Below are positions 2-25,478 of a stretch of 25,478 nucleotides of DNA, one piece after another. Numbering within the stretch: position 1 is the stretch's first letter; the number at the start of each line of letters is the position of its first letter. A program made the translations under genes and the position numbers. The stretch spans positions 1 through 25,478 of IMG/VR virus record IMGVR_UViG_3300027232_000017; one strand, 5' to 3'. This stretch comes from a virus. The notes beneath the pieces were generated by a model. It did no database searches. It had not been told where the DNA came from and saw only the letters and a program-made list of their open reading frames with translations.

Positions 2-202
2 ACAAGTGCTGGGCAACAGCGTGATTTTGGCGCACTGGCAGCGGCAAGACCAGGGCTTGTTCAAACGATAGTAAATACAGCGACACAAGATGTGTTTAAG
101 TGTTTTGAACAAATTTCAGGCGCTAACGTGGAGACTGACAGTGACTTATACAAAAATTGCGATAGCATTAGTAGCAGCACTAACACTAACGGCGTGCAGT
201 AA
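2..202 (+). CDS. Putative inner-membrane spanin (Rz-like), C-terminal fragment
   Basis: The reading frame is open from the left edge and ends at TAA 200-202, giving the last 66 residues of a protein whose start lies outside the window. The visible part contains QQRDFGALAAARPGLVQ, followed by an amphipathic stretch (TATQDVFKCFEQI) and a polar tail. The RDFxxLAxxxPGL pattern is one I associate with the periplasmic ends of phage i-spanins (Rz-type), which join inner and outer membranes in the last step of lysis. The main support is architectural: the next gene is a small lipoprotein overlapping it in a different frame, the classic Rz/Rz1 arrangement. The N-terminal membrane anchor and coiled coil cannot be seen, so the call depends on the unseen part. 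An unrelated virion protein is possible. Confidence 0.5.
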   Translation, partial: TSAGQQRDFGALAAARPGLVQTIVNTATQDVFKCFEQISGANVETDSDLYKNCDSISSSTNTNGVQ

Positions 203-494
203 ACCTGTTGAGCCAATAGTTGTTGATCAGCGACCAATTGAGAAGCCTGTGATAGTTCTGCCACCTGTTGATGAATTTAACTCTAGAACTGTAGAATGGA
301 TTGTTGTTACACCAGACAACATAGAGCAAGTATTTAAAGATTTAGAAGACTCTGGACAGCACATAGTATTGATAGCTCTAACCAGCGATGGTTATGAACA
401 CCTATCGCTGAATATGGCAGACCTGTTAAAATTAGTTCAACAACAGCGCGCCATAATAGCAGCCTACCAAAAATACTATGAAGCACAATCGTAA
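141..494 (+). CDS. Putative outer-membrane spanin lipoprotein (Rz1-like)
   Basis: From a GTG at 141 the protein begins [19 protein letters not shown], a short lysine-bearing n-region, a hydrophobic core and a lipobox (LTAC, cysteine at residue 19). It should therefore be exported, lipidated and sorted to the outer membrane. The mature part starts proline-rich ([15 protein letters not shown]) and ends in a conserved-looking segment with [18 protein letters not shown] and a helical [15 protein letters not shown] tail. An ATG at 90 in the same frame would add 17 residues ahead of the signal peptide. I prefer GTG 141 because it gives a normal signal peptide. The gene overlaps the upstream i-spanin candidate out of frame and overlaps the J-domain gene by 17 nt. 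Role inferred: fusing the outer membrane with the inner membrane during lysis, with its overlapping partner. Confidence 0.6.
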
Positions 495-1158
495 TCCCTG
501 GGACATTTTAGGAATATCAGAAGACGCTTCACAGGAAGAAATCCGTGAGGCGTTCAAGCGTCTTGCGATGAAGTATCACCCTGATCGTGACAGTGGTGAT
601 CTGGAAACATTTAAACTCATAAACTCAGCCTACAACAAGTTGAAAAACAATCAGATGGTGCCCATTGTAAAAGCCCCCGAAACAAAGATGGTAAATCTAA
701 AGCTAACACTAAAACAGCAAATTGAAGGTGTTAACGACTATGTTGATGTGGAAGGTGTGCTACTTAAAGTGAAAATACGCCCAGGTGCTCAAGTGGACGA
801 GAAGATAAAAGTTCGCGGTGACAATCAAAATTTTATATTAAATATCAAAGAACAAGCACATGAAGACTTTACAAGATACGGATTTAGTCTTATAATGGAG
901 TATGATTTGGACATATTGGAAGCCATGACAGGCGGTACGATAAGTATAATTAGTCCAACTGATGAACCATTAGAAATACCAATTCCAGCAAGTGTAACCA
1001 CAGGATATATCTTGACAATACCGGGCCAAGGCCTGTATAATAGAAGAACAAACAAACGCGGTAATCTTAACATACATTTACGTTTAAGGGTGCCAATACT
1101 AGATACAAACGATAAAATAGAAGAGTTTATTACAAGGTTAAAGAATGTCAGAAATTGA
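478..1158 (+). CDS. J-domain co-chaperone (DnaJ/CbpA-like)
   Basis: The 226-aa protein opens with a compact J domain (about residues 5-58). It has the helix II-loop-helix III signature: basic helix II ([11 protein letters not shown]), the HPD tripeptide at residues 34-36, then [13 protein letters not shown] is the residue set that stimulates Hsp70 ATPase. The rest (about 70-226) resembles the beta-rich C-terminal substrate-binding region of DnaJ ([37 protein letters not shown]). The Gly/Phe linker and Cys4 zinc fingers of DnaJ are missing, so it is closer to a short CbpA-type protein. No DnaK is in the window, so it probably uses host Hsp70. It overlaps the ClpA-like gene by 14 nt, implying translational coupling and a shared task such as feeding substrates to the unfoldase or assisting virion assembly. 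Confidence 0.85.
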
Positions 1159-3538
1159 AAACATTGTCCTACAGTCGATCAACTTGGCTAAAAAACTACG
1201 TCACCAATACGTAACAATCGAACACTTGACAATCGTTGTCATGGACGATGTTTCAGTACGTGCTATGTGCTATGAAGTTCAAGCAGATTGTGTGGGTATT
1301 CAGGAATCTCTTCTAGAGTATTTGAAGCAAGATTGTACTGAGCTAAAAGGCGCACCTGATGAAGAAGTACAACCGCGAAAAACACAGATGCTTGAACGTG
1401 TGTTTAATCGTGCGTTAACACAAGCACTATTTCAAGGTAAACAAGCTATCAATCAGATAGATTTGCTACAAAGTATTTTGAGTGAAGAAGCCAGTGCCGC
1501 AAGTCTGTTCAGTGGTGAAATGGGATTGGACAAACATGTAATTACTGAATGGCTTATGGACGTTCGTATGGAACAGCAAGCTGAGTTTGAAGAACGTATG
1601 AGTCAGTTGACTGACGAAGAGCGTGAGGAACAAGACGAGTTTGGGCCTCCGGAATACCGAAAAGTAGTTTCAAACAATAAGCAACAGCAACGTGCTCGTA
1701 ATACAAACAAAACAAGTCAAGCCTGGGACGTACTATCACAATTCACAGTTAACATGAATCAAGTAAGTCCTGAATACGACGATGTTGTTGGTCGTCGTGA
1801 AGAACTACGTGATCTTGTACAAACACTTTCCCGTAAGAAAAAATCCAACGCTATCCTTGTCGGCCCAAGTGGGGTAGGTAAAACTGCTATTGTCGAGGGA
1901 CTTGCTAAACTTATCGTTGAAGGCAATGTTCCAGAAGTAATGGAAAAGTATACTGTACTATCACTAGATATGGGAAAGCTAGTTGCTGGAACAAAATATC
2001 GTGGTGACTTTGAAGAACGTATGAAGAACTTGGTCGAGGCACTTGAACTAGTTGACGATGTGATCCTGTTTATTGATGAAATTCACATGGTTATTGGTGC
2101 TGGCTCGACTGGCGGCGGTGCTATGGACGCTGGCAACATGATTAAACCAGCACTAAGCGGCGGCACACTAAAAGTAATCGGTGCAACTACAGATGAAGAA
2201 TTCCGTAAGATTTTTGAGAAGGAAAGCGCACTTGCCCGCCGCTTTACTAAAATCAACGTTGGTGAACCAAGTGTAGAAGAAGCAAAAGAAATCCTACGTA
2301 ATACTATTGTGAGTTACGAAGTACACCATGGATTTGATATTGATCCTGAAGCATGTGACTTGGCAGTTGACCTGACCGCTGAATATGTGTTTAACAAAAA
2401 ACTACCAGACAAAGCATTTGATATCATTGACCGTGCGTGTGCGTATAATAAGATTCTACCAAGTGATCAACAAGTATCAATTATTAGTGCTACAGAAATT
2501 CGTAATGAAGTAGCACGTACAGTTGGTATTCCAGCAGAGCATTTGGGTAACCAAACTGAGGAGCATACCATTAATAAGCACGGACACGTTGAGGACTATC
2601 TCAAAGGCACTGTATTTGGACAGGATTCTGTAATTATGCGTGTATGTGATTCTATCACTGTTAGCATGGCTGGACTTAAAGATCCTACTAAGCCAGTTGG
2701 CTCATTCTTGTTTACTGGACCTACTGGTGTTGGTAAAACAGAACTCGCAAAACGTTTGGCACAAGCTATGGGTATGAAACTTGTGCGTTACGACATGGCT
2801 GAATATCAGGAGCGTCACACTGTAAGTAAACTTATCGGTAGCCCTCCAGGATATGTAGGACATGGTGACGGCAAAGCTGGCGATGGTTTGCTTATCAGCA
2901 ACCTTGAAGATAGTCCAAACTGTGTGTTGCTACTAGACGAAGTTGAAAAAGCACACCCAGACATTATGACTGTTCTACTGTCACTACTTGATGAGGGTGT
3001 TATTACCAGCAGCACAGGTAAAAAAGTAAGTGCCAAGAACGCTATCATTATAATGACCAGTAACCTTGGCGCTCGTGAAGGCGCGACAAAGGCTATTGGC
3101 TTTAGTGACAAGACATACAACTCTAAAGCAGTTGACGATGCAATCAACAACTTCTTTGCTCCTGAATTCCGCAACCGTTTGGATGCTATTGTTCGTTTTA
3201 ATGCACTACGTCCAGAGAACATGCAACGTATTGTTGTTAAGTTCTTGGGACAGATTGAAGGCTTGACAGCAGGCCGTAACATTGAACTAACCTGGACGCA
3301 GGATTTGAAAAACTATTTGGAAAAAGAAGGCTTTGATCCAGCAATGGGCGCTCGCCCACTAGCACGACTAATTAATGAGAAAGTTAAACTACCACTGGCC
3401 AAGTTTATGATGGAACATGGAGAAATCCATAATTCAAAGTTTACTGTAAACTGGGATGGCACCCAGACTATTATCACTGTGAAGAGTGATAGAAAACCAG
3501 AGGCTTTAATTGATGCAAGACCTGACCCAACATCCTAA
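1145..3538 (+). CDS. clpA-like: ClpA-type AAA+ unfoldase
   Basis: A 797-aa Hsp100 protein. Residues about 1-140 look like a Clp N-domain ([14 protein letters not shown]), followed by an acidic linker (about 140-190). D1 has Walker A GPSGVGKT (240-247), Walker [10 protein letters not shown] (306-314) and an ARRF arginine-finger segment. D2 has Walker A GPTGVGKT (525-532), Walker B VLLLDE (594-599), sensor-1 MTSN and FRNRLD. The C-terminal [14 protein letters not shown] is typical of the family. No long coiled-coil middle domain separates the modules, which argues for ClpA rather than ClpB or ClpC. An IGF tripeptide lies at residues 651-653, where ClpA carries its ClpP-docking IGL loop (ClpX uses IGF), so docking to host ClpP is plausible. 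No ClpP gene is in the window. The gene overlaps the upstream J-protein gene by 14 nt and the downstream gene by 26 nt. Confidence 0.93.
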
Positions 3539-4193
3539 ATGGGTGCAAAGTAATAAACTATATTACGGAAAATATGAGTGTGCGATTACTATTGGACCGT
3601 ACACTCAATATAACTATGTAAATTTACAACACTATATTATTCCAAATCGCAAAGCAAGTGATGATATTAGTCATAGAACACGCCGTCTTATGAACTTAAA
3701 TTTTTCTCATACACAGCAAAGCGATGATATAAAGTTTCACTACATGCTAACAGTGTATACAAGTCACCGCGGGTTTGTAGATTGGATTGTATACCAAAGC
3801 GGATATCCTATTGCAAGCGTTGTTTCACCAGCTAACGCAGACCATGCCAAGATTATGCACAGTTTGGATGAAAAGAGCGAATTTAGAAAACGTTTATATC
3901 ACGGCAAATACAAGTTTAGAGTAAATGCAACTCGTCCTTGGCGTAGTAATACCACTGATGAGGAAATGATTGCAGCCTATGACTGGGCAATGGATCAATT
4001 TGATACCACTGATAATAAAATACTGCGCCGCGCTGGGGGATATTATAATTATAGATACACAGGACGCCGTATATCTGCAATACCGTATATCTACACTAAT
4101 GACGAAGCAGCTATCATGCTGTTTAAAATGGCGTTCAGTAACACACTTAGCATTAAAGTAACACGTGCAATAACACTAGACAATATAGACTGA
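3513..4193 (+). CDS. Phage protein of unknown function with ExAxxxFKxxF C-terminal motif
   Basis: Unrecognised 226-aa protein. I start it at ATG 3513 ([10 protein letters not shown]); a TTG lies immediately upstream in frame at 3510. It is rich in aromatic residues (YNYVNLQHYIIP, HYMLTVYTSHRGFVDWIVYQ) and lacks a signal peptide or membrane segment. Near the C-terminus is YIYTNDEAAIMLFKMAFSN, which resembles the end of the small protein at 11146-11361 (ELYVFLENSEDAMIFKLKFG). The two may share a short domain. The start lies inside the end of the ClpA-like gene, so it is probably translated from the same message. It is followed directly by a late promoter, so it probably closes the J-protein/ClpA transcript. 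No function is assigned. Confidence 0.75.
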   Translation: MQDLTQHPKWVQSNKLYYGKYECAITIGPYTQYNYVNLQHYIIPNRKASDDISHRTRRLMNLNFSHTQQSDDIKFHYMLTVYTSHRGFVDWIVYQSGYPIASVVSPANADHAKIMHSLDEKSEFRKRLYHGKYKFRVNATRPWRSNTTDEEMIAAYDWAMDQFDTTDNKILRRAGGYYNYRYTGRRISAIPYIYTNDEAAIMLFKMAFSNTLSIKVTRAITLDNID

Positions 4194-4416: not shown

Positions 4417-4788
4417 ATGGCAAACAGCACAATAATTTTATCAAATCAAACGCAGATGTCGTACACTGGGGAGAAACACCGCGGTGACGGCTTTTATGGC
4501 TTTGCGGATGGTTTACACACAGTAAGTTTCCACGTAACAAACTTCACTGGCCGTATTTGCTTACAGGCAACACTGTTAGAAAATCCTACAGAAGCAGATT
4601 GGTTCTTCATTCAATTACAGCAAGATACTGTGCATATTGAGTGGGACAACGAATCAGAAACACTTGGTACAAGTTTTATTGGAAACTTCGTTTATATTAG
4701 AGCTGTTGTCGATAGAAGCTACTTAATAGATCAAAACTATAACCCATCAGTTCATGGATTAGTTGACAAAGTAGTATTAATGATTTAA
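4417..4788 (+). CDS. Probable virion structural protein upstream of the tail fibre
   Basis: A 123-aa protein (MANSTIILSNQTQMSYTGEK) with alternating hydrophobic/polar strands and almost no obvious helix. The pattern GEKHRGDGFYGFADGLHTV followed by VTNFTGRICLQATLLENP and a DWFFIQL segment is one I have seen in small structural proteins next to tail-fibre genes of T4-like marine phages. It is most likely a beta-sandwich tail or fibre accessory protein. It starts 6 nt after the 58-aa gene stop and ends 15 nt before the tail-fibre start, so the three genes are probably one late transcript. Confidence 0.7.
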   Translation: MANSTIILSNQTQMSYTGEKHRGDGFYGFADGLHTVSFHVTNFTGRICLQATLLENPTEADWFFIQLQQDTVHIEWDNESETLGTSFIGNFVYIRAVVDRSYLIDQNYNPSVHGLVDKVVLMI

Positions 4789-4803: not shown

Positions 4804-6954
4804 TTGGCAATTAAGGCGTATAATAGTAATACTGGCAATAGTATTATTGATACTAGTATTAAATTTGTTGAGGGCGACATGCTGGCATTTGATGCTAGAA
4901 AAAACTTGTTTGTTCGCACAACACGGGCAGAAATAGCAACCGTAGACTTAACTGGATACGCTACACTTGCACAAGTACAGTCACTGATAGACAATATAGA
5001 TGGTGGCACTGCTACTACTATAGATTGGGCAAATGTTACTACCAAACCAACAATCCCAAGCATTGATGGGTTAGCAAGTGAAGCATATGTAACACAACAA
5101 ATTGCGCTAAGTCAACCAGACTTAACTTCATATTCTACTAAAACATATGTTGACACGGCTATCGCCGCAGCACTGGCTAGTGCGGGCAGTGGTGATCTTT
5201 CAACCTATTACACTAAAACCGAAGTAGACAATCTGTTAGCAAATTATCAGCCATCAATAGATCTATCAGGATATGCTACCACTGGTTATGTTACAAATCA
5301 ACTAACTGCCTACCAACCAAAATTTGATCTATCACAATACGCTACAAAGGCATATGTTGCTGGCGAAGTATTCAGCGGCGATTATAACGATTTAACAAAC
5401 AAACCAACACTATTCAGCGGCAGTTATAATGATTTAACAAACAAGCCAATTATCTTCAGTGGCAACTACGCCGACCTTTATAATCAGCCAATCATTCCAA
5501 GTATTGACGGATTGGCAAGCATTGCGTATGTTGATCAACAGATTGCAAACGTAGCCAGTGGTGGCAGTATTGATTTAAGTAGTTATGTAACTGAAACTGA
5601 ACTAGCAACTGCCCTAGCTGGTTATCAACCAAGTGTTGACCTAACATCATACTACACAAAGACTGAAGTAGATGGTTTAATAACACCACACTTTAGTGGC
5701 GATTATACTGATCTAACCAATACGCCAACTATCCCAAGTTTAACTGGATATGCTACACAGGCATATGTAGATAGTGCAGTTGCAAACAGCAGTGGCGGTG
5801 GTAGTGTTGATTTAACTGGATATGCCACACAAACATATGTGCAACAGCAAATCAGTGCAGCAACACTTGGAGTAATTGCAAACGTTGGCGACTTAAATGA
5901 TGTTGCCATTGATACTAATCTTGACGCATTGCACCAAGCATTAATATGGAACGGTGTTAACAATCTCTGGGAAAACGTTGACCTAGAAGATACATTTGCT
6001 ACAAAGGTTTATGTTACTGAACAGCTAGCAAACATTCTAAGTAACGGACAGATAACACTTGACGGTTATGCCACTGAGTCTTATGTAACACAAAAGCTAC
6101 TGGAACGTGGTGATCACTTTAGTGGTAACTATAACGACCTAGTCAACCGTCCAATTCTTTTCAGTGGTGATTATCGTGATCTAATTAACGCACCAGCAGA
6201 CAACAGCGATCTGAGACTTATGTTAGTTGGTGATGAACTACAGTTACTAAACATTGAGCCTGAACCAGATACCGTTATTAGTAGAATTACACTAGATGAT
6301 CTAGGTACAGCGGTGTCAGCTTATATTGACTACAATCAAGTAAGTAACTTACCAGACATTTTTAGTGGTGACTACAATGATCTAGTTAACCGCCCAATAC
6401 TATTCAGTGGTAACTACAATGACCTAGCAAACAAGCCATACATTCCAAGTATTGCTGGCTTGGCTACTGAAACATATGTTAACAACAAACACGCTGAACC
6501 AACTATCTATGGTGATAAAACATTCAAAGGCAGCGTAACATTTGAAAGTTTCACACTGCAAAAAATTAGTACTGTTAGCCATACTGCCGCTATCAAGAAT
6601 ATGGTTATGGCGATCCGCACAACTAATGCTATTCCAACAGAAGTACTATTAAATGGTGGCAGCAGAATTACTATTGCCAGTGGCACAACTGCGATGTTTA
6701 AAATTACGTTTGTTGCAACCAGCGGGGCTGACTCAGCAAGTTTTGTTGTACGTGGTATTATTGACAACAACAGTGCTGGCCTAAGGCTAATTGGTTCAAA
6801 CATTACAGAGACAATTGCTGACAGCGATCAAACTTGGTCAGGCGCGGCAAGTGCTAACATTGTAAACGATAGCTTAAAAATTGTAGTCACAGGCAGCGAT
6901 GCAACCACAGTTGACTGGACAGTGTTTGTAGAACTAAATGAAGTAGTAAGATAA
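4804..6954 (+). CDS. Repetitive tail-fibre protein
   Basis: A 716-aa fibre. I place the start at TTG 4804 (MAIKAYNSN): two in-frame stops (4795-4797 and 4798-4800) exclude any upstream start, and GGGGG at 4790-4794 is a suitable ribosome binding site. Residues about 45-590 consist of two interleaved repeats. One is FSG[DNS]YxDLxNxP, eight copies. The other is LxGYATxxYVxxQ[IL]-type, about a dozen copies, some in the YYTKTEVD form common in phage fibres. After the repeats a non-repetitive region (about 600-716, from GDKTFKGSVTF) is rich in Thr/Ala/Ser and beta strands and is probably the terminal or trimerisation/receptor domain. The protein should project from the baseplate and contact the host surface. 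Its stop codon lies within the next late promoter. Confidence 0.88.
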   Translation: MAIKAYNSNTGNSIIDTSIKFVEGDMLAFDARKNLFVRTTRAEIATVDLTGYATLAQVQSLIDNIDGGTATTIDWANVTTKPTIPSIDGLASEAYVTQQIALSQPDLTSYSTKTYVDTAIAAALASAGSGDLSTYYTKTEVDNLLANYQPSIDLSGYATTGYVTNQLTAYQPKFDLSQYATKAYVAGEVFSGDYNDLTNKPTLFSGSYNDLTNKPIIFSGNYADLYNQPIIPSIDGLASIAYVDQQIANVASGGSIDLSSYVTETELATALAGYQPSVDLTSYYTKTEVDGLITPHFSGDYTDLTNTPTIPSLTGYATQAYVDSAVANSSGGGSVDLTGYATQTYVQQQISAATLGVIANVGDLNDVAIDTNLDALHQALIWNGVNNLWENVDLEDTFATKVYVTEQLANILSNGQITLDGYATESYVTQKLLERGDHFSGNYNDLVNRPILFSGDYRDLINAPADNSDLRLMLVGDELQLLNIEPEPDTVISRITLDDLGTAVSAYIDYNQVSNLPDIFSGDYNDLVNRPILFSGNYNDLANKPYIPSIAGLATETYVNNKHAEPTIYGDKTFKGSVTFESFTLQKISTVSHTAAIKNMVMAIRTTNAIPTEVLLNGGSRITIASGTTAMFKITFVATSGADSASFVVRGIIDNNSAGLRLIGSNITETIADSDQTWSGAASANIVNDSLKIVVTGSDATTVDWTVFVELNEVVR

Positions 6955-6957
6955 ATA
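6950..6957 (+). promoter_or_regulatory. T4-type late promoter (GATAAATA)
   Basis: GATAAATA matches TATAAATA at seven of eight positions. The TAA stop of the tail-fibre gene (6952-6954) is embedded in the box. The next ATG is 44 nt downstream with its own AAAAAGGAG ribosome binding site. Confidence 0.6.
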
Positions 6958-7001
6958 AGCATAAGCGTAACAACGCAGATTTTTAAAAAGGAGTCATTAT
7001 A

Positions 7002-7307
7002 ATGGCAACACGTAACCCAGCAAACGTTATCCGGTTTAATGTAGGTAACTTTGGCGCACCAGTAAGCGTTTATTTAATTGGAAATGCAGCAGGCGCAGAC
7101 GCACAAGTAGCACCGGGCGAAGACATGGAAGCATTTGTAGAAGCAGTACAAAAGCGTGGCATTACGCTAGCTATTGGTGCATACAATGCAGGCGCATTCC
7201 GCATTTATGTTGAGAACTCAGGATGGGACGCAGCAACACTTGAAACAGCAGTACAAGCAGTTGGCGGTGTTTTTGCAGCAGCTACAGTAGCAGACGCAAC
7301 ACTGTAA
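7002..7307 (+). CDS. Small probable virion protein (101 aa)
   Basis: A 101-aa protein with a strong Shine-Dalgarno (AAAAAGGAG before ATG 7002). The product begins MATRNPANVIRFNVGNFG and is unusually rich in Ala, Gly and Val (GNAAGADAQVAPG, AAATVADATL) with few charges. The composition and high-quality translation signals suggest an abundant particle protein. It sits alone between a late promoter (6950) and a strong rho-independent terminator (7335-7360), so it can be made as a monocistronic late message. It also follows the tail fibre, so it may be a fibre-associated or decoration protein. No family is recognised with confidence. Confidence 0.78.
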   Translation: MATRNPANVIRFNVGNFGAPVSVYLIGNAAGADAQVAPGEDMEAFVEAVQKRGITLAIGAYNAGAFRIYVENSGWDAATLETAVQAVGGVFAAATVADATL

Positions 7308-7409: not shown

Positions 7410-7823
7410 ATGGCAATACGAGATCTAGGTCCAATGGATTTGAATAAAGACGGAACGATAAGTAAATGGGAACTATTCCCATATTGGTTTGATAGACTGC
7501 GTCTATTTCCACGTGCATTTATCACAATGTACATGTATATGTTCTATCGTGTAGTAGAATGGTTTATGGCATTGCCAGACCCAACTATGGAACAAGCTGG
7601 ACTTGTAAGCGTAGTAACTGGCGCAGGTGCAGCATGGTTTGGACTTTATGTAAATAGTGGTAATATCACCCCTGGACCAATTGTAGTACAATCAACTACA
7701 ACACCAACAGTTGCAGCAAGATCAACTAATAGTACTAGAAGTCAGTCAAATAGATCAAGAACAACAGAGCCAGCAATTGCTCCACTTGATGACGACGACA
7801 TAACGGAAAACCCACACGGTTAA
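7410..7823 (+). CDS. Two-TM membrane protein with an EF-hand loop; holin candidate
   Basis: The 137-aa product begins MAIRDLGPMDLNKDGTISKW. Residues 10-21 (DLNKDGTISKWE) fit the 12-residue EF-hand calcium loop exactly (D1, N3, D5, G6, I8, S9, E12). Two hydrophobic segments follow, about residues 33-54 (rich in M, Y, F) and 64-81 (GLVSVVTGAGAAWFGLYV). Then comes a Ser/Thr/Arg-rich linker (94-120) and an acidic end (LDDDD). Small size and two TM segments suit a class II-like holin, and the spanin candidates at the start of the window show that lysis genes are present in the region. A virion membrane protein is an alternative. GGGGG at 7392-7396 is 13 nt from this ATG; a closer ATG at 7403 opens only a 14-codon frame. 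Confidence 0.65.
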   Translation: MAIRDLGPMDLNKDGTISKWELFPYWFDRLRLFPRAFITMYMYMFYRVVEWFMALPDPTMEQAGLVSVVTGAGAAWFGLYVNSGNITPGPIVVQSTTTPTVAARSTNSTRSQSNRSRTTEPAIAPLDDDDITENPHG

Positions 7824-7836
7824 AAAAGGATTATCA

Positions 7837-8400
7837 ATGTTTTATCAAAATCACATACAACTAAAGACTCCAGAAATGCTAGACGCTGATACTGCTAAAC
7901 AGTGGTATCAGACAGTGAAAAGTTTTGGGCCTGAAAATATAACATACAGTTATCAGATGGGAGAAAACTTTATTGCTATGGAGTACGGTACATGTGAAGA
8001 TTGTGAATTTCAACACGCATATGTTGTTCCACTAGTTCGTAACTTAACAGAGACAGAAGCAGCGTTTATTGTGCAAGCATGGGAATATTTGTACGATGGT
8101 GACTTTGATGTTGAACTAAGCAGCAACTATGATGCTGGTATGCTGGGTAACGATGGTGTTGAGTTAAGTGTAGATGAAGAAACAAGAGCTCAGGCTGTAG
8201 CGGAGATGAGCAAATGGAATCACAATCGTTGGGTTGACAGTATGGTAAACGAAGGTTGGCGCCATGGTCCATATTTTAGCAATACTGGTAAAACACATCC
8301 AGCATTGCGCAGTTGGGATATGCTGCCAGAAAGCCATCGTAGAAGTCCATCATTTACAGATGCTGAAGTTATCCAGTGGGTAATGCGTAATAAATCTTGA
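7837..8400 (+). CDS. RyR-domain protein
   Basis: A 187-aa protein. Residues about 118-183 look like a RyR domain: WNHNRWVDSMVNEGWRHGP, then GKTHPALRSWDMLPESHR, and a final helix (DAEVIQWVMRN). This fits the family pattern of a helix with W, then GWxxG, a KxHP turn, a (D/E)xLP motif and a closing helix. RyR domains occur four times in ryanodine receptors and singly in many bacterial and phage proteins, where the ligand is usually unknown. The N-terminal 110 residues contain CEDC (53-56) and a helix/strand mix that I do not recognise. AAAAGGA lies just before ATG 7837. It is probably co-transcribed with the EF-hand protein 13 nt upstream. The job in the phage is unknown. Confidence 0.8.
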   Translation: MFYQNHIQLKTPEMLDADTAKQWYQTVKSFGPENITYSYQMGENFIAMEYGTCEDCEFQHAYVVPLVRNLTETEAAFIVQAWEYLYDGDFDVELSSNYDAGMLGNDGVELSVDEETRAQAVAEMSKWNHNRWVDSMVNEGWRHGPYFSNTGKTHPALRSWDMLPESHRRSPSFTDAEVIQWVMRNKS

Positions 8401-8463: not shown

Positions 8464-9492
8464 GTGTTCAATCAATCAATTAAACGTGTAGGCTTTGCCT
8501 GCAAATATATGCATCATGATCAAAGCCTCAAGAAAAAATTACTTGAGGAGATTCAACGTGAATATAGTGAACGTAGCACTACTATTACGTGGTTAAATAG
8601 ACAGCAGCGTGATGTAGCTGAAGAACGTCTTTACGATATTTCACTACACAACGTAGCAGCACTGGAAAGGATGATTCGTTATGTGGGTAACTTACCTCCA
8701 ACACAACGTATGGTACGCATTGGGTCCAATCAGCTTCCTGCTTATACTGAGCGTAGCTGGTCTTATTTTTATAGGCAGTCAGATATCCAGGAACGGCTCC
8801 AGCGAGCATACGCGAATGTGGGCGAAGTCGCTCGTAGCCTTGATGTACGCCTGTCTATGCACCCTGGGCAGTTTACTGTGTTGGCTAGCGATAATCCAGA
8901 AATTGTAAATAATAGCATAGAGGAGTTTGAATACCATGCGGATCTCATCAGGTGGATGGGCTACGGTAAAAGTTGGCAAGACTTCAAGTGTAACGTCCAC
9001 ATCTCAGGACGCCAAGGTCCAGCCGGTATCAAAGCCGTCCTTCCAAGACTGTCTCCAGAAGCACGAAACTGTATTACTATCGAAAACGACGAAAACGCCT
9101 GGGGTCTCGAAGCTAGCCTAGAACTAGAAAAAGATGTTGCACTGGTTGTAGACATCCATCACCATTGGGTAAACAGTGGAGGAGAATATATTGAACCAAC
9201 GGACGATAGGGTTAAACGAGTTATTGATAGCTGGCGTGGTGTTCGGCCTGTTATTCACTACAGCGTATCTAGAGAGGATTTACTGGCCGGCGAAGCAACA
9301 GATGTCCGTCCAGACTTTGGATCCCTAATTAATAGAGGATTTAAAAAGGCAAAACTTCGCGCACACAGCGACTATATGTGGAACAGCGCAGTCAACGAAT
9401 GGGCCGCTACTTTTAGATCACAATTCGACATCATGGTAGAGGCAAAGTGTAAAAACTTGGCTAGTATACCGTTCGAGGAATCAGCAGGTTAA
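8464..9492 (+). CDS. uvsE: UV damage endonuclease (UvsE/UVDE family)
   Basis: A 342-aa TIM-barrel repair enzyme. Family signatures are visible in order: KRVGFACKYM near the N-terminus, RLSMHPGQF (residues 129-137), then NVHISG, TIENDEN, VVDIHHHWV and HYSVS. The His/Glu/Asp residues of these motifs form the metal-binding site of UVDE enzymes. The reaction is incision of DNA 5' to UV photoproducts and some other lesions, starting excision repair. T4 itself uses the unrelated DenV glycosylase, so this is a different solution to UV damage, useful in sunlit water. Start: GTG 8464; the first residues FNQSIKRVGFAC put the barrel's first strand in the usual place. Driven by the sigma70-type promoter at 8397. 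Its stop overlaps the next ATG (TAATG). Confidence 0.93.
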   Translation: MFNQSIKRVGFACKYMHHDQSLKKKLLEEIQREYSERSTTITWLNRQQRDVAEERLYDISLHNVAALERMIRYVGNLPPTQRMVRIGSNQLPAYTERSWSYFYRQSDIQERLQRAYANVGEVARSLDVRLSMHPGQFTVLASDNPEIVNNSIEEFEYHADLIRWMGYGKSWQDFKCNVHISGRQGPAGIKAVLPRLSPEARNCITIENDENAWGLEASLELEKDVALVVDIHHHWVNSGGEYIEPTDDRVKRVIDSWRGVRPVIHYSVSREDLLAGEATDVRPDFGSLINRGFKKAKLRAHSDYMWNSAVNEWAATFRSQFDIMVEAKCKNLASIPFEESAG

Positions 9493-10432: not shown

Positions 10433-11149
10433 ATGAAATATATTTTAAATTGGCCCAGTGGTGGAGGTGGTGATTTTATACTTGCCTTGATATCTATCGC
10501 CAAAGGATGGAATACAGAAATAATACATTTGCACAGATTAAATGCATGGAACCATATGTCTAGCAGTGTATTAAAATATCGTACATTTAAATATTACGAT
10601 GATCTTGAAAAGCATCAAGAACTTTATGATAATATGCCAGATGAACATGTATTGCAGACACATACATTGCGTGAATTAAAAATAAACACTGACGATAATA
10701 CAACCGCCGTCAATATATACGTTGATGGCATCTTTCAAGAAACGTTTATTGGAGTATTATGGAAATTTAAGACAGAGCCGATAGATGAAAACGAAGGTAT
10801 CAATCACATTTACAAAGAGAATGGGTTCATTGAAGGCGCTGTTAATCTTAGTTATGAAAAATTAATAGTTCAACAAGATGAAACGGAAATAATGCGATTA
10901 TTTAAAGCATTTAATACTGATATCGTCAATATTGATATTATCAAACACGCATTGTATCTATACCATAACAAAAATATTAAACTATTACAAATAGCACATA
11001 ATGAAAACAATATTAATAGGAAAGCATTTAGTGATATATTAAACATGGATGATTTAATATTTTCCCTTGAACAGCCCATGCGTAAAACATTAGAAGATCA
11101 AATATCACTGCGTGAGTATTTGCCAAGCACAGGATTTAAAATTAAATGA
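10433..11149 (+). CDS. AT-rich unknown protein, glycine-rich N-terminal loop (sulfotransferase-like group)
   Basis: A 238-aa protein of unknown function. It starts MKYILNWPSGGGGDFILALI: a hydrophobic strand, a glycine-rich turn and a hydrophobic helix, the layout of a P-loop-like nucleotide-binding start. The same layout begins the proteins at 13234, 13937, 16983 and 22472. The rest is rich in N, I, K and D with predicted helices, and no further motif is clear. Codons are strongly AT-rich (ATA, AAT, TTA, AAA), unlike the uvsE and phosphoesterase genes before it, suggesting a different history. It begins two nucleotides after the NTF2-like stop and overlaps the next gene by ATGA. Membership in a degenerate sulfotransferase-like group is inference only. 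Confidence 0.7.
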   Translation: MKYILNWPSGGGGDFILALISIAKGWNTEIIHLHRLNAWNHMSSSVLKYRTFKYYDDLEKHQELYDNMPDEHVLQTHTLRELKINTDDNTTAVNIYVDGIFQETFIGVLWKFKTEPIDENEGINHIYKENGFIEGAVNLSYEKLIVQQDETEIMRLFKAFNTDIVNIDIIKHALYLYHNKNIKLLQIAHNENNINRKAFSDILNMDDLIFSLEQPMRKTLEDQISLREYLPSTGFKIK

Positions 11150-11361
11150 GACGCCCTGGCTGGACATTTAATATTAAAGACAAGATACGGGTGTATCCTG
11201 ACAGAACCAGGATAATCGAAAAAGAAATTACCACATGGCTTCATAATAATACGTCTGGTTATTATGATTATAATTTTCCTGAACTTTATGTTTTCTTGGA
11301 AAATTCAGAAGATGCTATGATCTTCAAACTAAAATTTGGCGAATATATCGAGTCAGTATAA
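11146..11361 (+). CDS. Small protein (71 aa) with ExAMIFKLKFG motif
   Basis: The 71-aa product begins MRRPGWTFNIKDKIRVYP. Its C-terminal half, ELYVFLENSEDAMIFKLKFG, resembles the last 30 residues of the protein at 3513-4193 (YIYTNDEAAIMLFKMAFSN). I recall similar short C-terminal motifs in small proteins of marine T4-like phages. The start overlaps the stop of the preceding gene (ATGA), so translation is coupled. The TAA stop (11359-11361) is part of the next late promoter TATAAATA. No function is known to me. Confidence 0.72.
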   Translation: MRRPGWTFNIKDKIRVYPDRTRIIEKEITTWLHNNTSGYYDYNFPELYVFLENSEDAMIFKLKFGEYIESV

Positions 11362-11387: not shown

Positions 11388-11612
11388 ATGAAAATAGACG
11401 AAATCTATAAACTAAAGCGTTTAGCTGGTATTATTGACAAAGAAGGCAATACTGTTGACGGTGACGACGAGTCAAACATCAGTATTGTTGGTTCTGAAAA
11501 GGGCCGCTATCAGCGTGAGAAAAACATTAGGCCAGGAACTCCTGAGTGGTTTAAGCTCTGGTTCTCAAAGCCTTATCTGACAGGCGAAAAACCAATGGAT
11601 AAAGATAAATGA
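11388..11612 (+). CDS. Small late protein (74 aa) with MKI-type leader
   Basis: A 74-aa protein starting MKIDEIYKLKRLAGI, first gene after the perfect late promoter at 11357. The N-terminal MKI[SDN][DE] pattern recurs in the proteins at 14585, 14903, 17754 and 22058 and recalls the N-terminal capsid-targeting peptides of T4 internal head proteins. The body is polar (GNTVDGDDESN, GSEKGRYQREKN) and ends PGTPEWFKLWFSKPYLTG. The next gene starts inside its last codons (ATG 11609; overlap of 4 nt), so it is translationally coupled to the 541-aa protein. A small internal or assembly protein is the best guess; no domain is recognised. Confidence 0.75.
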   Translation: MKIDEIYKLKRLAGIIDKEGNTVDGDDESNISIVGSEKGRYQREKNIRPGTPEWFKLWFSKPYLTGEKPMDKDK

Positions 11613-13234
11613 GAATTACAGAAGTAGACACTCCAGTAACACAGCCACAACTTGATGCACTTGAAAAAGTGTTGGATCGAGTATTTTCTCAACTAGGAAT
11701 TGATGTTGAATTTACACGACACTTCCTAGACCGTGTTAATGATGAACGTAACATTAAACAAATTACACTTAGTGAGCTTGGACAGCTATTTAAAAAAGAA
11801 TTTATGAAATGGGGTAAACCCATTGCACGTCTTGGCCCAGATGCTGAAGCCGTTATGAAGGACTTATCTAGCGATATTAATATTCCCTTCGCGCTAAACT
11901 GGAACAAGGGAAGCGGTATGCTTGAACTGGTAGCCAAGACTGTAATGCGCAAAAAGAACTTCCGTACACCAAACAAAGAGTTTCCTGTTGAAAGTGTCAT
12001 GGAAGCTGAAGGTAAAAATACACACCTTGAGCATTTGGAAGATGAAATTATTAATGCTGGCCATGATGGAGCACAGCGCATTATCGCTTACCTAAAAAGT
12101 TTAGAGAGTATGCTACAAGGACACGGTGGTAAAGGAACAAACGTTACCGTTAAGTGGGATGGCGCACCAGCAATTATTTGTGGTATTGATCCAGAAGATG
12201 GCAAGTTCTTTGTAGGCACCAAGGGCGTGTTTGCTAAAAGTCCAAAGCTAATCAAATCAGTGCAAGATGTTGAACAGTTCTTCCCAGATCAACAGGAACA
12301 AGGCGATCGTGCAAATCTACGTAACAAACTAAAAATTACGTTTACTAGCCTAAGCAAGCTAGGCATAGAGGGCGTTATGCAAGGCGATCTATTGTTTACT
12401 CCAGACAGTTTAAAAACAGTTGATATTGCTGGTGATTCATACGTAGCATTTAAGCCAAACACCATTACATACGCAGTACCACTGGGTAGTGATTTGGCGA
12501 CACGTATTCAAAACAGTGCAATGGGTATTATTTTCCATACACGTTACAGCGGCGGTGAAACACTGGCTGACATGAGTGCAAGTTTTGATGTAGATGTTAA
12601 CAAGTTTAAAAATGCATCTGGTATCTTTGTTGACGATGCTTATTACAAAGACTTAACTGGCGTTGCTACACTAACGACACAGGAAGATGCTGCACTGCGT
12701 AAAGCTATCGCAGATGCTGAAAGTTATTTAAGCACACTTGATGATCGTACATTTGGTCTACTAAGCAACAGTCCAATCCAAAGTATTGGGGTTGAGCTAA
12801 AAGCACACATCAACAGCTATGTACGTGGAGGTAGTTTTGAACAGGATCCACAGAAATTTGTTGCTGACTTTGTAAAGCGTGTAAACGAAAAAGCAGCGAA
12901 GAAAATGGCTGGACTGAAAACAGGTCCAGAGGGTGCCGCAGGCCAGCGCCTGGCACAAGCAACAGAACAATCCGTACAATGGGTTAACGACAACACTGAA
13001 CAACTTGTCGCTATGTATGGATTGTATATGAGAATTATTGCCGCAAAATTGTTAATTGTTAAAAAACTACGCGGTATTGGTAGTATTGAAAGTTTCTTGC
13101 AACAGGGAGACGGCAGCTACAAAGTGACATCACCAGAAGGTTATGTCGCAATTGACCATATGGGTAATGCAGTAAAGCTCGTTGACCGACTAGAGTTTAG
13201 TGCAGCCAACTTTGGTGATAAAGAATTTGGTTAA
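11609..13234 (+). CDS. Large late protein with ligase-like KxDG motif
   Basis: A 541-aa protein of a kind I recall from many marine T4-like phages as a conserved hypothetical. Residues about 35-125 form a separate module (FTRHFLDRVNDERN, ARLGPDAEAVMKDL, LELVAKTVMRKK). After a linker ending VMEAEGKN, residues about 135-350 contain VTVKWDGAPAIICGIDP with K182-W-D-G185. That resembles motif I (KxDG), the covalent lysine of ATP-dependent ligases and capping enzymes. It is followed by FVGTKGVFAK, EGVMQGDLLF (254-263) and YVAFKPNTITYAVP (from 278), plausible equivalents of motifs III and IIIa. The C-terminal 170 residues are helical. It may be a nucleotidyltransferase-fold protein; activity is unproven. 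It overlaps the 74-aa gene by 4 nt and the next gene by one base. Confidence 0.82.
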   Translation: MRITEVDTPVTQPQLDALEKVLDRVFSQLGIDVEFTRHFLDRVNDERNIKQITLSELGQLFKKEFMKWGKPIARLGPDAEAVMKDLSSDINIPFALNWNKGSGMLELVAKTVMRKKNFRTPNKEFPVESVMEAEGKNTHLEHLEDEIINAGHDGAQRIIAYLKSLESMLQGHGGKGTNVTVKWDGAPAIICGIDPEDGKFFVGTKGVFAKSPKLIKSVQDVEQFFPDQQEQGDRANLRNKLKITFTSLSKLGIEGVMQGDLLFTPDSLKTVDIAGDSYVAFKPNTITYAVPLGSDLATRIQNSAMGIIFHTRYSGGETLADMSASFDVDVNKFKNASGIFVDDAYYKDLTGVATLTTQEDAALRKAIADAESYLSTLDDRTFGLLSNSPIQSIGVELKAHINSYVRGGSFEQDPQKFVADFVKRVNEKAAKKMAGLKTGPEGAAGQRLAQATEQSVQWVNDNTEQLVAMYGLYMRIIAAKLLIVKKLRGIGSIESFLQQGDGSYKVTSPEGYVAIDHMGNAVKLVDRLEFSAANFGDKEFG

Positions 13235-13944
13235 TGGAACATTATTTGGTTGTATACATGACAGGCCATTCTGGGCAATGGCTTACGTGGTTTATTGATC
13301 AACATAAAAATTTTCCAAAATATAAAACATACCTTGAGTGTAATGAAAACGGCGCCTGTGATTATAAATCTCCTGGCACACATTGGCTTAATTCTACAGT
13401 TGATAGCTATCCAGATCATGAGTCAGATGGTGAGTTTGATGTATCAAATTTTGATAGTAGTTTTGAAACATATACAAAAAGTTGGATACCATTATATACA
13501 CAGGATATATCGTCTACAAAAAATGCACTTCAGTTAATTGAATATCACGAATTGTGGATGAAGTCTAAAGACGAAATATCTGCTATCGTCAATGAGATAA
13601 ATCCTGCAGGAATAATTGTTGTTTATATAGATCCCAGCAACACATGGACGACCCCTATTGAAAATAGATCACATAATTTATTTAAAAATGTAGCGCCCGC
13701 ATGGGCTACGATAGAAACAACAAAAACTATAACATGGGAATGGTATTCAGAGATTTATGTTGGTAGATTTTTTGATTTTCTTTCTGACAAATATAGATTA
13801 CATTATTTGAATATTGGTAATATATTAGATTGTGATATTAATGAATATAAGTCATTATTGGAATTCATTGATGAGGAACCTATTAATAATTACGAGTATC
13901 TTACTAAGGATATGATAGAAAAGGTTTATAAAAAATATGTCTGA
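13234..13944 (+). CDS. AT-rich sulfotransferase-like protein (degenerate)
   Basis: A 236-aa protein. The N-terminus, YLVVYMTGHSGQWLTWFIDQ, is a hydrophobic strand, a GHSG turn and a helix. It matches GHGGNYFAW in the protein at 16983 nearly residue for residue (GH[SG]G[QN][WY][LF]xW). The C-terminus EYKSLLEFIDEEPINNYEYL matches EYHKMLDFLGLKPLENW in the next gene, and the ExxxLLxFLxxxP form is common at the ends of sulfotransferases. The middle has GIIVVYIDPSNTW, which could be the second core strand. The classical PxSGTT loop is absent, so catalysis is doubtful. Very AT-rich compared with the 541-aa gene, with which it overlaps by one base (TAATG). It overlaps the next gene by 8 nt. Confidence 0.68.
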   Translation: MEHYLVVYMTGHSGQWLTWFIDQHKNFPKYKTYLECNENGACDYKSPGTHWLNSTVDSYPDHESDGEFDVSNFDSSFETYTKSWIPLYTQDISSTKNALQLIEYHELWMKSKDEISAIVNEINPAGIIVVYIDPSNTWTTPIENRSHNLFKNVAPAWATIETTKTITWEWYSEIYVGRFFDFLSDKYRLHYLNIGNILDCDINEYKSLLEFIDEEPINNYEYLTKDMIEKVYKKYV

Positions 13945-14572
13945 AATTTTTATTTTAGGTTGTTACAGCGGATCTCCTATTAGACAACTTACACATTTTG
14001 TTAATAGGCACGAAGGAATGTTTTGCGCTGAGATAGAAGCAACCGGTATATATGGAAACACTGAAACAGTGTGGTATTATGGTCGTGACACTTTTGAAGA
14101 ATATACTGCTTCAATAAATTACGACAACAGTAAATCTTTAGCAGTATCACTTCGCCCTGAACCGGACCTATGGGCTGATATTTTTGCTGAAGAATTTAGA
14201 CCAATTGGAGTTGGAAGTAATGTATCAAAAATACTAATATTTACTATCCCAAACTCGCCAGAATCAGATGCTATGTTTGACCGTATCTGGAAAATATCAG
14301 AAGTATCAGATGTATTGTATTATGAATCTATACCTATAATGATATCAACAAATGCTGAGTATAATTTAGAAATACCTGAACGATTTGAAATATTTCAGTC
14401 AGCACACCAATTTGAGTACGGGTTCGTTGATATGATAAAGATTTTAAACAAGGACGAAACTGAATATCATAAAATGTTAGACTTTCTTGGATTGAAACCT
14501 TTAGAAAACTGGACTAAGATAATTGATTATGTCAACGATCAATTCTTTAATACAAGTTTAAAAACATTTTAA
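13937..14572 (+). CDS. AT-rich sulfotransferase-like protein (degenerate), second copy
   Basis: The 211-aa product starts MSEIFILGCYSGSPIRQLTH, the same strand-turn-helix layout as its upstream neighbour. It ends with EYHKMLDFLGLKPLENWTKI, clearly alike the neighbour's C-terminus. The internal KILIFTIPNSPESDAMF would be the second core strand. The two genes overlap by 8 nt and share AT-rich codon use, so they probably arose as divergent relatives that travel together. Intact PAPS-binding residues are not visible, so function is open: sugar or surface modification, or a derived structural role. The TAA stop abuts the next late promoter. Confidence 0.66.
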   Translation: MSEIFILGCYSGSPIRQLTHFVNRHEGMFCAEIEATGIYGNTETVWYYGRDTFEEYTASINYDNSKSLAVSLRPEPDLWADIFAEEFRPIGVGSNVSKILIFTIPNSPESDAMFDRIWKISEVSDVLYYESIPIMISTNAEYNLEIPERFEIFQSAHQFEYGFVDMIKILNKDETEYHKMLDFLGLKPLENWTKIIDYVNDQFFNTSLKTF

Positions 14573-16740: not shown

Positions 16741-16983
16741 ATGTCACGCAAAAAATTTAATCCAGACGACCTTGACGAAACAGTTGGTCCTATGAATCAT
16801 GTAGCAAAGGAAGACGCTATGGTTTGGGCAGGCGTTAAAAATCCAGACAACATGAACGAATACGAAAAGCGTACAGTAGTAGTCAAAAAGCAAAATATTA
16901 AGAAGTCTACAGTTAAAAATGAACGTAGACTAAGTAAAAACATAATCAAAAATTTAGACGACAGTAATAATGATAGAAAATAA
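16741..16983 (+). CDS. Small charged protein (80 aa)
   Basis: An 80-aa protein starting MSRKKFNPDDLDETVGPMNH. It is highly charged, turning strongly basic after residue 50 (VVVKKQNIKKSTVKNERRL), with no membrane segment or known motif. The last codons lie inside a 13-bp tandem repeat that also creates the start of the next gene; the stop TAA (16981-16983) and ATG 16983 share one base. The C-terminal NNDRK and the next protein's MIENNDRQ are read from repeat copies. A nucleic acid or tail/capsid contact is possible from the charge alone; no family is recognised. Confidence 0.68.
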   Translation: MSRKKFNPDDLDETVGPMNHVAKEDAMVWAGVKNPDNMNEYEKRTVVVKKQNIKKSTVKNERRLSKNIIKNLDDSNNDRK

Positions 16984-17003
16984 TGATAGAAAATAATGAT
17001 AGA
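16969..17003 (+). repeat. 13-bp tandem repeat at a gene junction
   Basis: The unit AATGATAGAAAAT occurs twice exactly (16969-16981 and 16982-16994) and a third time in part (16995-17003). Because 13 is not a multiple of 3, each copy presents ATG and TAA in a different frame. The upstream stop and downstream start are both made from the repeat. Confidence 0.85.
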
Positions 17004-17735
17004 CAAGTAATATTTGTATCTAACCCAATTGGTCATGGCGGTAACTATTTTGCATGGGCGTTACAGGACGCGATGGGTTATGATTACTATATATTAAAAG
17101 CAGGTCCTAACCGAGATTTTACCGCAGGAGAAAAAGACGATACTACTTTATCATTGGATAGGGATCCTTATTGGACAAATTCAGGTGTTGTTGGAAACAA
17201 TTTACGTTTAATGAGTTTTCTATTAGACCCTTACAAACACGAAATATTTGAAAGAGAAAAATACGACAATGAGATAGCTGGTGCTGATGATTCTAATCGT
17301 ACATCTAGAATTTATAATTTCGTAATAGAACAAATAAAATTGATGATAAATTCTAAAAAATTTATATTTTTAGATAATATTAAAACAGTAATAATACAAA
17401 ACGAGCATTTTATACTAATGCCAGAAATAGAGAATAATGATATGTTATTCTTTATTACAGATGCTGACAGTTATTTAAAACGTTTTAATATTGAACGATT
17501 TAATAGTGAAAGACCACAGCAGTATTTAGAAACTATGATAGGCTGGTTTAATCATATAGATAAAGATAATATGAATCCATATCATTTCATAATTAATATG
17601 GAGGATATGATTTGTAATAAAAACTATGACTTTATTGAACATCTTAAAGAAAAAGATCGTGTAGACGTGGACAAATTACACAAAAATATGCTCGTATGGC
17701 ATGAGTTTATACTCGAAAAGAACTTAAATAAGTGA
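16983..17735 (+). CDS. AT-rich sulfotransferase-like protein (degenerate), third copy
   Basis: A 250-aa protein. After MIENNDRQ it reads VIFVSNPIGHGGNYFAWALQ, a strand, GHGG turn and helix that align with GHSGQWLTW in the protein at 13234. The middle has DNDMLFFITDAD-like strand segments (NNDMLFFITDADSYLKRF) and the C-terminus is helical (VDKLHKNMLVWHEFILEKN). Codons are strongly AT-rich against the neighbouring GNAT and late genes. Inserted between a small charged protein and a late promoter, it has no obvious tie to its neighbours. The classical PAPS loop is missing; function unknown. Confidence 0.66.
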   Translation: MIENNDRQVIFVSNPIGHGGNYFAWALQDAMGYDYYILKAGPNRDFTAGEKDDTTLSLDRDPYWTNSGVVGNNLRLMSFLLDPYKHEIFEREKYDNEIAGADDSNRTSRIYNFVIEQIKLMINSKKFIFLDNIKTVIIQNEHFILMPEIENNDMLFFITDADSYLKRFNIERFNSERPQQYLETMIGWFNHIDKDNMNPYHFIINMEDMICNKNYDFIEHLKEKDRVDVDKLHKNMLVWHEFILEKNLNK

Positions 17736-22471: not shown

Positions 22472-23299
22472 ATGATCATTAATATTATAGGTTTGCCTAG
22501 AACTGGAACCACTGTATTGTATCAGTCAGTTTTTTCCGGAATAAACAAATGTGATATGTTAGTTAAGCGAGATACATTTTTAGATAGATGGGATGAACCT
22601 TGGATATTTAGTAAACAGGATAGAGGTAATCCTGAATTTATTAAAAATTTGTCATTGAAAATAGATGAAGCAATAGAGTTGGGCACAACTGGCCATTTGG
22701 TAATCAAAACACACTATGGACACTTGTCTGATCTCAAAAAATATGTTCCAGAGTCGTATGAAAAGCTATTATCTGTAGAAACGTACAACATAAAGATATT
22801 TAGAGCCAACATATTTGATTCAACGTTGAGTAATATGATACTTACAAAAGCAAATATAGAAGGACCTGAAAAATTCTTAACCGTTCTAAATTCAGCAATA
22901 CCAGACATGTCAGAGGAACAGGTCATAGAATCTATCAAATCTATATCTTATGAAATCGACGAGGCGGAGTTTTTAAAGTTTTTTGACGGTTATATCTTTT
23001 CCCATTGTGAGATGTTGAGAAATCATTTAAATTTATCTGTAGATGATTATGTTCTATATGAAAATCTTCCTAAAACAATCAAGGGCATCTGGGAAAGTTT
23101 AAAGCTATCATTAGATGACAGATTTAAATTTGATATAAATGATAGTTTTGATGTGGTAACAAAAAAATCTTTCTACAGTAAAAAAGATCTGATCAAAAAT
23201 TATGACAATTTACACGCCGCCGTCTCAAAATATAATGGTGAGTATAGTTCAATGACATTGACTGATGGATTCTGGACTACTAAAGTTGTTGACTTTTGA
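22472..23299 (+). CDS. Sulfotransferase-like protein
   Basis: A 275-aa protein with recognisable sulfotransferase signatures. The N-terminal 5'-phosphosulfate loop is IIGLPRTGTTVLYQSVF (GLPRTGTT at 7-14). VIKTHYGHL (KTH at 79-81) is a typical core strand. IFRANIFDSTLSNMI (R111, S120) resembles the 3'-phosphate binding RxxxDxxxS segment, with one extra residue. Such enzymes move sulfate from PAPS to hydroxyls of sugars, lipids or proteins; the acceptor is unknown. Codons are AT-rich like the degenerate relatives at 10433, 13234, 13937 and 16983, of which this is the best preserved. It sits alone between the basic 50-aa gene and the dsbA promoter. Ribosome binding site is weak. Confidence 0.78.
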   Translation: MIINIIGLPRTGTTVLYQSVFSGINKCDMLVKRDTFLDRWDEPWIFSKQDRGNPEFIKNLSLKIDEAIELGTTGHLVIKTHYGHLSDLKKYVPESYEKLLSVETYNIKIFRANIFDSTLSNMILTKANIEGPEKFLTVLNSAIPDMSEEQVIESIKSISYEIDEAEFLKFFDGYIFSHCEMLRNHLNLSVDDYVLYENLPKTIKGIWESLKLSLDDRFKFDINDSFDVVTKKSFYSKKDLIKNYDNLHAAVSKYNGEYSSMTLTDGFWTTKVVDF

Positions 23300-24431: not shown

Positions 24432-25478
24432 ATGAGTTACGTAGACGGCTTTCTTGATAGGGAAGCTGACAAAATTCACATCGTAGAACGTGTAAACGGC
24501 AGGCGCGAATATCGCGAATATCCTGCACGTTACACGTTTTATTACCCTGATCCACGCGGTAAGTTTACCAGCATTTTTGGTGACAAGCTAGAGCGTGTAG
24601 TATGCAATACTGGCAAGAAGTTTCAAGCTGAAAAGAAAATCCACGGACACAAAAAGTTATTTGAGAGTGATATCAATCCAGTGTTCCGCTGTTTGGCTGA
24701 CAACTATATGGATGTGGAAGCCCCAGAACTACAACTAGCATTTTTCGACATTGAGGTTGACTTTAACAAGGATTTGGGTTTCGCCAATCCAGAAGATCCT
24801 TTCAATGCCGTTACTGCTATTGCAGTACATCTAAGCTGGCTAAAGCGCACAGTATGTTTAACTATCAAGCCCAAAACACTCACCAAAGAAGCAGCACAGG
24901 CTATTGTTGATAAGTTTGACGACACAATTCTGTTTGATACTGAGGCCGAACTACTTGAATCGTTTATTTCATTAATTGACGATGCTGACGTACTCAGCGG
25001 TTGGAACAGCGAAGGCTTCGATATTCCATATATTGTTAACCGCATTCAACGTGTACTGAGCAAAAGTCATACGCGGCAGCTATGCTTGTGGGATAAGTTT
25101 CCAAAGCCAAAAACAGTTACCAAGTTTGGTAAAGAAAGCGGCACATATGAACTCATGGGCCGTGTACATTTGGACTATTTGGAACTGTATCGCAAATACA
25201 CATATCATGAAATGCACAGCTATAGTTTGGATGCGATTGGTGAGTATGAACTTGACGAACGCAAAGTAGAGTATGAAGGTACACTTGATCAGCTATACAA
25301 CAATGACTATGAAAAGTTTATTGCGTATAACAGACAGGACGTTGATCTACTGGTAAAGCTGGACAAGAAGCTACAGTTTATTGACCTTGCAAACGTGCTA
25401 GCACATTCCAACACAGTGCTACTACAAACAACTATGGGCGCTGTTGCACAAACTGACCAAGCTATTGTTAACGAAGCA
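24432..25478 (+). CDS. 43: DNA polymerase, family B, T4 gp43-like (N-terminal part)
   Basis: The frame runs from ATG 24432 to the right edge (349 codons, no stop), so the polymerase palm/fingers/thumb are outside the window. The visible part is the N-terminal domain and 3'-5' proofreading exonuclease. Exo I is AFFDIEVDF (D106, E108), Exo II is GWNSEGFDIPYIVNR (190-204, D197) and Exo III is YNRQDVDLL (Y299, D303). The order, HLDYLELYRKYTYHEMHSYS and the Exo II wording follow T4 gp43 (GWNIEGFDVPYIMNR). All catalytic acids are intact, so proofreading should be active. It would copy the phage genome with the clamp and loader encoded elsewhere. It has its own sigma70-type promoter. Confidence 0.96.
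   Translation, partial: MSYVDGFLDREADKIHIVERVNGRREYREYPARYTFYYPDPRGKFTSIFGDKLERVVCNTGKKFQAEKKIHGHKKLFESDINPVFRCLADNYMDVEAPELQLAFFDIEVDFNKDLGFANPEDPFNAVTAIAVHLSWLKRTVCLTIKPKTLTKEAAQAIVDKFDDTILFDTEAELLESFISLIDDADVLSGWNSEGFDIPYIVNRIQRVLSKSHTRQLCLWDKFPKPKTVTKFGKESGTYELMGRVHLDYLELYRKYTYHEMHSYSLDAIGEYELDERKVEYEGTLDQLYNNDYEKFIAYNRQDVDLLVKLDKKLQFIDLANVLAHSNTVLLQTTMGAVAQTDQAIVNEA

Follow-up and report, generated by a model that had tools for sequence, protein, structure and literature searches.

A J-protein gene overlapping a ClpA-type unfoldase gene in T4-like phages: probable components of a phage-encoded Clp protease system

Among the closest described systems is the Clp set of the Agrobacterium jumbo phage Atu_ph07, which comprises ClpA (gp292), DnaJ (gp293), ClpX, ClpB, a ClpP subunit and ClpS, with proposed roles in virion assembly, replication and aggregate clearance; the available text of that paper lists these genes and describes neither a J-ClpA module nor the docking loop of the unfoldase (PMC6102473). 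Rki, a J-protein of the T4-related phage RB43, depends on host DnaK, to which it binds, and stabilises sigma32, an example of a phage J-protein that can act on host DnaK; it was reported as an early-expressed ORFan without generic co-chaperone activity, and the abstract mentions no pairing with ClpA (PMC3486835). A review of jumbo phages mentions ClpP, ClpS, ClpA and DnaJ one by one and predicts recruitment of host Hsp70 by the phage DnaJ (PMC7824862); in moraphages, ClpA is a core gene, and some members encode both DnaJ and DnaK (PMC12619734). A literature search spanning few subscription papers and no preprints found no description of a J-ClpA operon, of the docking-loop pattern, or of smaller T4-like phages with all components; while the parts were already known, the conserved operon, the co-occurrence of loop type with J, ClpX and Hsp20, and the presence of the whole set in T4-like phages of smaller size are new here.

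The window, i.e., the whole stretch of DNA analysed, is the entire 25,478-base viral record IMGVR_UViG_3300027232_000017, a T4-like fragment of a larger genome; profile matches (Pfam/PHROG) place a T4-type family B polymerase at 24432 and DUF6267 at 11609. The J-ClpA module and its surroundings comprise the following features:

90..494, + strand: Rz-like spanin with lipobox LTAC (phrog_812, E = 2.5e-8), at the head of the conserved spanin-J-ClpA run
478..1158, + strand: J-protein, 226 aa, with J domain and DnaJ C-terminal substrate-binding domain (Pfam; model)
577..585, + strand: HPD motif, J-protein residues 34-36, invariant in 27 aligned J-proteins
1145..3538, + strand: ClpA-type double AAA+ unfoldase, 797 aa (NCBIfam, PHROG and PDB matches; structural match)
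1862..1885, + strand: Walker A of ring 1, GPSGVGKT, residues 240-247 (alignment)
2717..2740, + strand: Walker A of ring 2, GPTGVGKT, residues 525-532 (alignment)
3095..3103, + strand: IGF tripeptide of the ClpP-docking loop, residues 651-653 (aligned on E. coli ClpA I617-G618-L619)
3510..4193, + strand: conserved gene with no assigned function that shares 29 nt with the end of clpA; T4-like relatives have a homologue at this position
4417..4788, + strand: virion structural protein family phrog_13657; the PA5oct homologue is annotated as structural and was seen by mass spectrometry
4804..6954, + strand: large, fibre-like protein with repeats, encoded after the module in conserved synteny

The spanin ORF and the J gene share 17 nt, and a spanin homologue also lies upstream of J in T4-like relatives, in Atu_ph07 and in the Sinorhizobium phage Phosso. 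The T4-like relatives preserve the order spanin, J, ClpA, gene of unassigned function, structural protein, large fibre-like protein, and parts of it recur in Atu_ph07, Phosso and the Pseudomonas phage PA5oct; the 4804..6954 product had no match in a Pfam search, and its designation as a fibre is putative. The T4 late promoter TATAAATA was rejected as a candidate ahead of the module; its single match in the window lies at 11357, which is below chance expectation. Elsewhere, the window encodes a UvdE-type UV endonuclease (8464-9492, Pfam E = 1e-36) that is also conserved downstream in several relatives, and five ORFs of 210-275 aa with zero Pfam matches (10433-11149, 13234-13944, 13937-14572, 16983-17735 and 22472-23299); some of these begin with a short hydrophobic, Gly-rich stretch (e.g., NWPSGGGGDF, NIIGLPRTGT), and the five are possibly a sulfotransferase-like paralogous set. 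As J-proteins and every Clp component are common bacterial genes, one might suspect bacterial DNA wrongly assigned to a virus; yet the window carries the polymerase and DUF6267 genes named above, its longer relatives contain gp23 and gp21, and the phage ClpAs are distinct from bacterial ClpAs. Since the same J-ClpA pair occurs in the cultured phages Atu_ph07, Phosso and PA5oct, misassignment is already refuted, its residual probability being negligible.

The J-protein matches Pfam DnaJ at residues 7-59 (E = 1e-15) and DnaJ_C at residues 72-206 (E = 4e-18), and its model (pLDDT 87) has T. thermophilus DnaJ (4j80, Z 16.9) as best structural match. In the alignment it has neither the G/F-rich linker of classes A and B, its linker being short (about residues 60-71), nor the zinc finger of class A, a cysteine motif being absent. 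The best NCBIfam family of the unfoldase is TIGR02639 ClpA (E = 4e-230), at 766 bits against an equivalog cut-off of 993; because this cut-off is missed, the protein is called ClpA-type, a divergent phage branch and not bacterial ClpA proper. It also matches phrog_4871, "ATP-dependent protease" (E = 6e-232). In alignments, Walker B is intact in both rings (residues 307-312 and 595-599); against E. coli ClpA 160-740, no insert of ~120 aa corresponding to the ClpB coiled-coil middle domain was found between the rings, and residues 10-126, a candidate ClpS-binding domain, align with the E. coli ClpA N-domain (E = 2e-7). Structurally, the model (pLDDT 78.5) comes closest to the ClpAP complex 6w20 (Z 40); the docking loop is of low confidence and flexible in this model. 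The initial annotation, which had described a J-domain protein with HPD at residues 34-36, encoded in a 14-nt overlap with a ClpA-like double AAA+ protein that keeps the Walker motifs of both rings, lacks the ClpB middle domain and has an IGF docking tripeptide, is borne out in each of these elements: the ORFs run from 478 to 1158 and from 1145 to 3538, profile and structural matches agree with the alignments on the architecture, and the tripeptide coincides exactly with IGL 617-619 of E. coli ClpA. Homologues might have been found to lack the tripeptide consistently; instead, each of the 31 distinct ClpAs that do not belong to the Rak2-like phages retains [I/V/L]GF.

The pairing of the two genes extends well beyond the window. 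A scan of viral contigs gave 34 ClpA loci, and a look for the adjacent pair, as proposed in the initial annotation, found a J gene upstream of clpA in 33 of them; the remaining contig (L032) starts too near clpA to show an upstream gene. With J genes this rare in phages (the J-protein of the window was matched by 9 of 50,697 records), such a pairing does not arise by chance. The genes overlap or lie 22-54 nt apart in most loci, and about 890 nt apart in L033 and L038; in all T4-like relatives they overlap by 4-14 nt. In PA5oct, J lies 9 nt upstream of clpA and the same structural-protein family follows, but the C-terminal part of its J-protein is divergent and its genome measures 287 kb. Atu_ph07 resembles the window lineage in that J adjoins ClpA and that ClpP, ClpX, ClpS and Hsp20, but not Hsp70, are its own; it differs as a 490 kb jumbo phage with a longer J linker and a gap of 34-73 nt in place of the overlap. 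In Phosso, a peptide deformylase is annotated between the J gene and clpA (L002:4439-4957), with a possible effect on the N-terminal processing that matters for ClpS substrates. Phylogenetically, the phage ClpAs form a single clade apart from the bacterial ClpAs (support 100/99). The phage set shares with E. coli ClpAPS the domain plan, both Walker pairs, the IGL/IGF loop, the ClpP triad and the ClpS pocket motif, but it is divergent and places J beside clpA with clpS elsewhere, whereas no bacterial Clp locus had an adjacent J gene (0 of 37).

Conserved adjacency may reflect operon sharing only, with the J-protein acting alone on host DnaK in the manner of RB43 Rki and ClpAP working independently. 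Rki, which binds DnaK and is no generic co-chaperone (PMC3486835), offers a precedent, and gene contact is not obligatory, given the intervening deformylase gene in Phosso and the ~890 nt gap in the two contigs. Against this, J is co-inherited with ClpA across deep divergence, the overlap is universal among the T4-like relatives, and the full DnaJ C-terminal substrate-binding domain is retained; the reading is possible though somewhat unlikely, and it is compatible with a proteolytic function of the module, competing only with a hand-over of clients from J-protein to ClpA.

The initial annotation had suggested that the pair may borrow ClpP and Hsp70 from the host, or works alone as a chaperone in assembly. 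No ClpP gene occurs within the 25 kb window, nor was a ClpX or ClpS gene seen in this fragment; elsewhere, 20 of 24 records of relatives encode a ClpP (E down to 1e-82). The four others are fragments that stop short of where the gene would be expected, with J only 5-29 kb from their upstream end; as the nearest contig has ~31 kb between ClpP and the downstream J gene, these absences are not evidence of loss. This contig of 38,274 bases, whose ClpA and J-protein are 97% and 89% identical to those of the window, carries ClpP-ClpX-IF3-Hsp20-ClpS together with spanin-J-ClpA; by the locus ranges, the distance to the downstream J gene is about 25 kb from ClpS and about 31 kb from ClpP, so that clpP and clpA do not belong to one operon. 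The ClpP catalytic Ser/His/Asp triad is retained, and the ClpP of the nearest lineage passes the NF001368 cut-off for the Clp proteolytic subunit (253 vs. 249 bits) and misses the stricter TIGR00493 equivalog. Identity with a T4-type prohead protease was rejected: the head maturation protease cut-off is failed (88 vs. 120 bits), and the nine long genomes in which gp21/S77 could be detected encode it separately. ClpS, with its NDD or NDE, TP and His signature, is present in 21 of 24 relatives; ClpX exceeds its equivalog cut-off in 18 of 24 and has its own IGF loop and zinc finger; Hsp20 occurs in 17 of 22. Hsp70 is encoded by none of the 24, which eliminates a phage Hsp70 as partner of the J-protein, and no Aat transferase was found in the relatives searched, so that N-degron generation would need the host.

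Several further observations concern these Clp regions. In L113, the nearest relative, translation initiation factor IF-3 (6768-7301) and Hsp20 (7658-8086) both lie between clpX and clpS, the former suggesting control of translation initiation; between clpP and clpX, a zeta-toxin-like P-loop kinase (2431-3126) is followed by an SNase-like nuclease (3192-3608). Relative to the G005/G006 type, the ClpP of the window lineage (L113:1796-2413, L115:3662-4288, L072:15489-16103) carries an insert of 10 residues within the handle region. A second, more divergent ClpP-like protein (E ~1e-31 to 1e-32) is encoded at G009:C1:93196-93642 and G015:C1:31442-31909, possibly for a mixed ClpP ring.

With regard to the host partners, one half of the initial proposal stands: in the absence of a phage Hsp70 from the relatives, the J-protein would have to use host DnaK. 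The other half is not the best reading, since close relatives carry their own matching ClpP, ClpX and ClpS; the phage probably brings its own protease and need not borrow ClpP, and the case for host ClpP as a necessary partner is weakened. Docking on host ClpP, with the phage ClpP serving ClpX or another partner, nevertheless has some points in its favour. The xGF tripeptide is a generic ClpP-docking motif that would also suit bacterial ClpP, and host ClpP is widespread in the control genomes. On the other side, a bona fide phage ClpP is present in every relative long enough to show one, and the Rak2-like jumbo phages (GAP32, 121Q, XbC2 and Vibrio 2.275.O) combine a much more divergent ClpP (E ~1e-43) with a changed tripeptide, LGM, MGM, IGM or IGV, which suggests that the loop adapts to the phage's own ClpP; docking on the host enzyme appears distinctly improbable. 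The Rak2-like phages resemble the window lineage in having ClpA beside virion genes and ClpP and ClpS of their own, but they lack J, ClpX and Hsp20 (three phages searched). As a caveat, the four Rak2-like ClpAs form one subclade (support 100/100), so that the association between loop type and J may go back to just one event in evolution.

The Rak2-like phages also bear on a non-proteolytic alternative, in which J and ClpA would form a virion-assembly or disaggregation chaperone for the adjoining large fibre or structural proteins. The virion structural neighbourhood is conserved in several lineages and fits an assembly role as well; the Rak2-like clpA adjoins a tail sheath stabiliser and structural genes, and in its product the docking tripeptide no longer ends in the canonical residue. 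In the group of the window, however, the docking loop is strictly conserved and ClpP and ClpS co-occur, and the ClpB middle domain, the element that connects Hsp70 to disaggregases, is absent; a purely chaperone function is unlikely.

Taken together, the J-ClpA pair is likely part of a phage-encoded ClpAP(S)/ClpXP protease system in which the J-protein uses host DnaK. Points against this reading are the lack of a clpP gene in the window fragment, the ~31 kb between clpP and clpA, the virion structural neighbours and the need for the host in N-degron generation. The genes, their intact motifs, the docking loop, the conserved order and the co-occurrence are observed directly in the sequences; from these we infer that a phage ClpAP assembles, that host DnaK is used, that J/DnaK passes clients to ClpA and what these clients are. 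ClpA, produced together with the J-protein from overlapping genes, would act as ATP-driven unfoldase and dock by its IGF loop on a phage ClpP whose gene would lie in another part of that genome; ClpS would supply N-degron substrates to ClpAP, and ClpX would be a second, alternative ATPase on the same ClpP. The J-protein would recruit host DnaK, probably keeping misfolded or aggregated host or viral proteins soluble and handing them to ClpAP, possibly with Hsp20 helping to hold these clients. The known bacterial hand-over from Hsp70 goes to the non-proteolytic ClpB; a virus-specific route from Hsp70 to ClpAP, with a dedicated J-protein whose amounts are coupled to ClpA and which steers DnaK clients to viral degradation, is proposed only tentatively and is rather doubtful.

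Phages are usually viewed as exploiting or inhibiting the proteases of their hosts. What this lineage appears to bring into the cell is an entire regulated protease that includes an adaptor for N-degrons, a second ATPase and helper chaperones and lacks only Hsp70. With a J-protein coupled to a ClpP-type unfoldase, one could test directly whether a degradative Hsp100 can receive substrates from Hsp70, and the divergent docking loop of the Rak2-like phages offers a natural comparison for the co-evolution of ATPase and peptidase.
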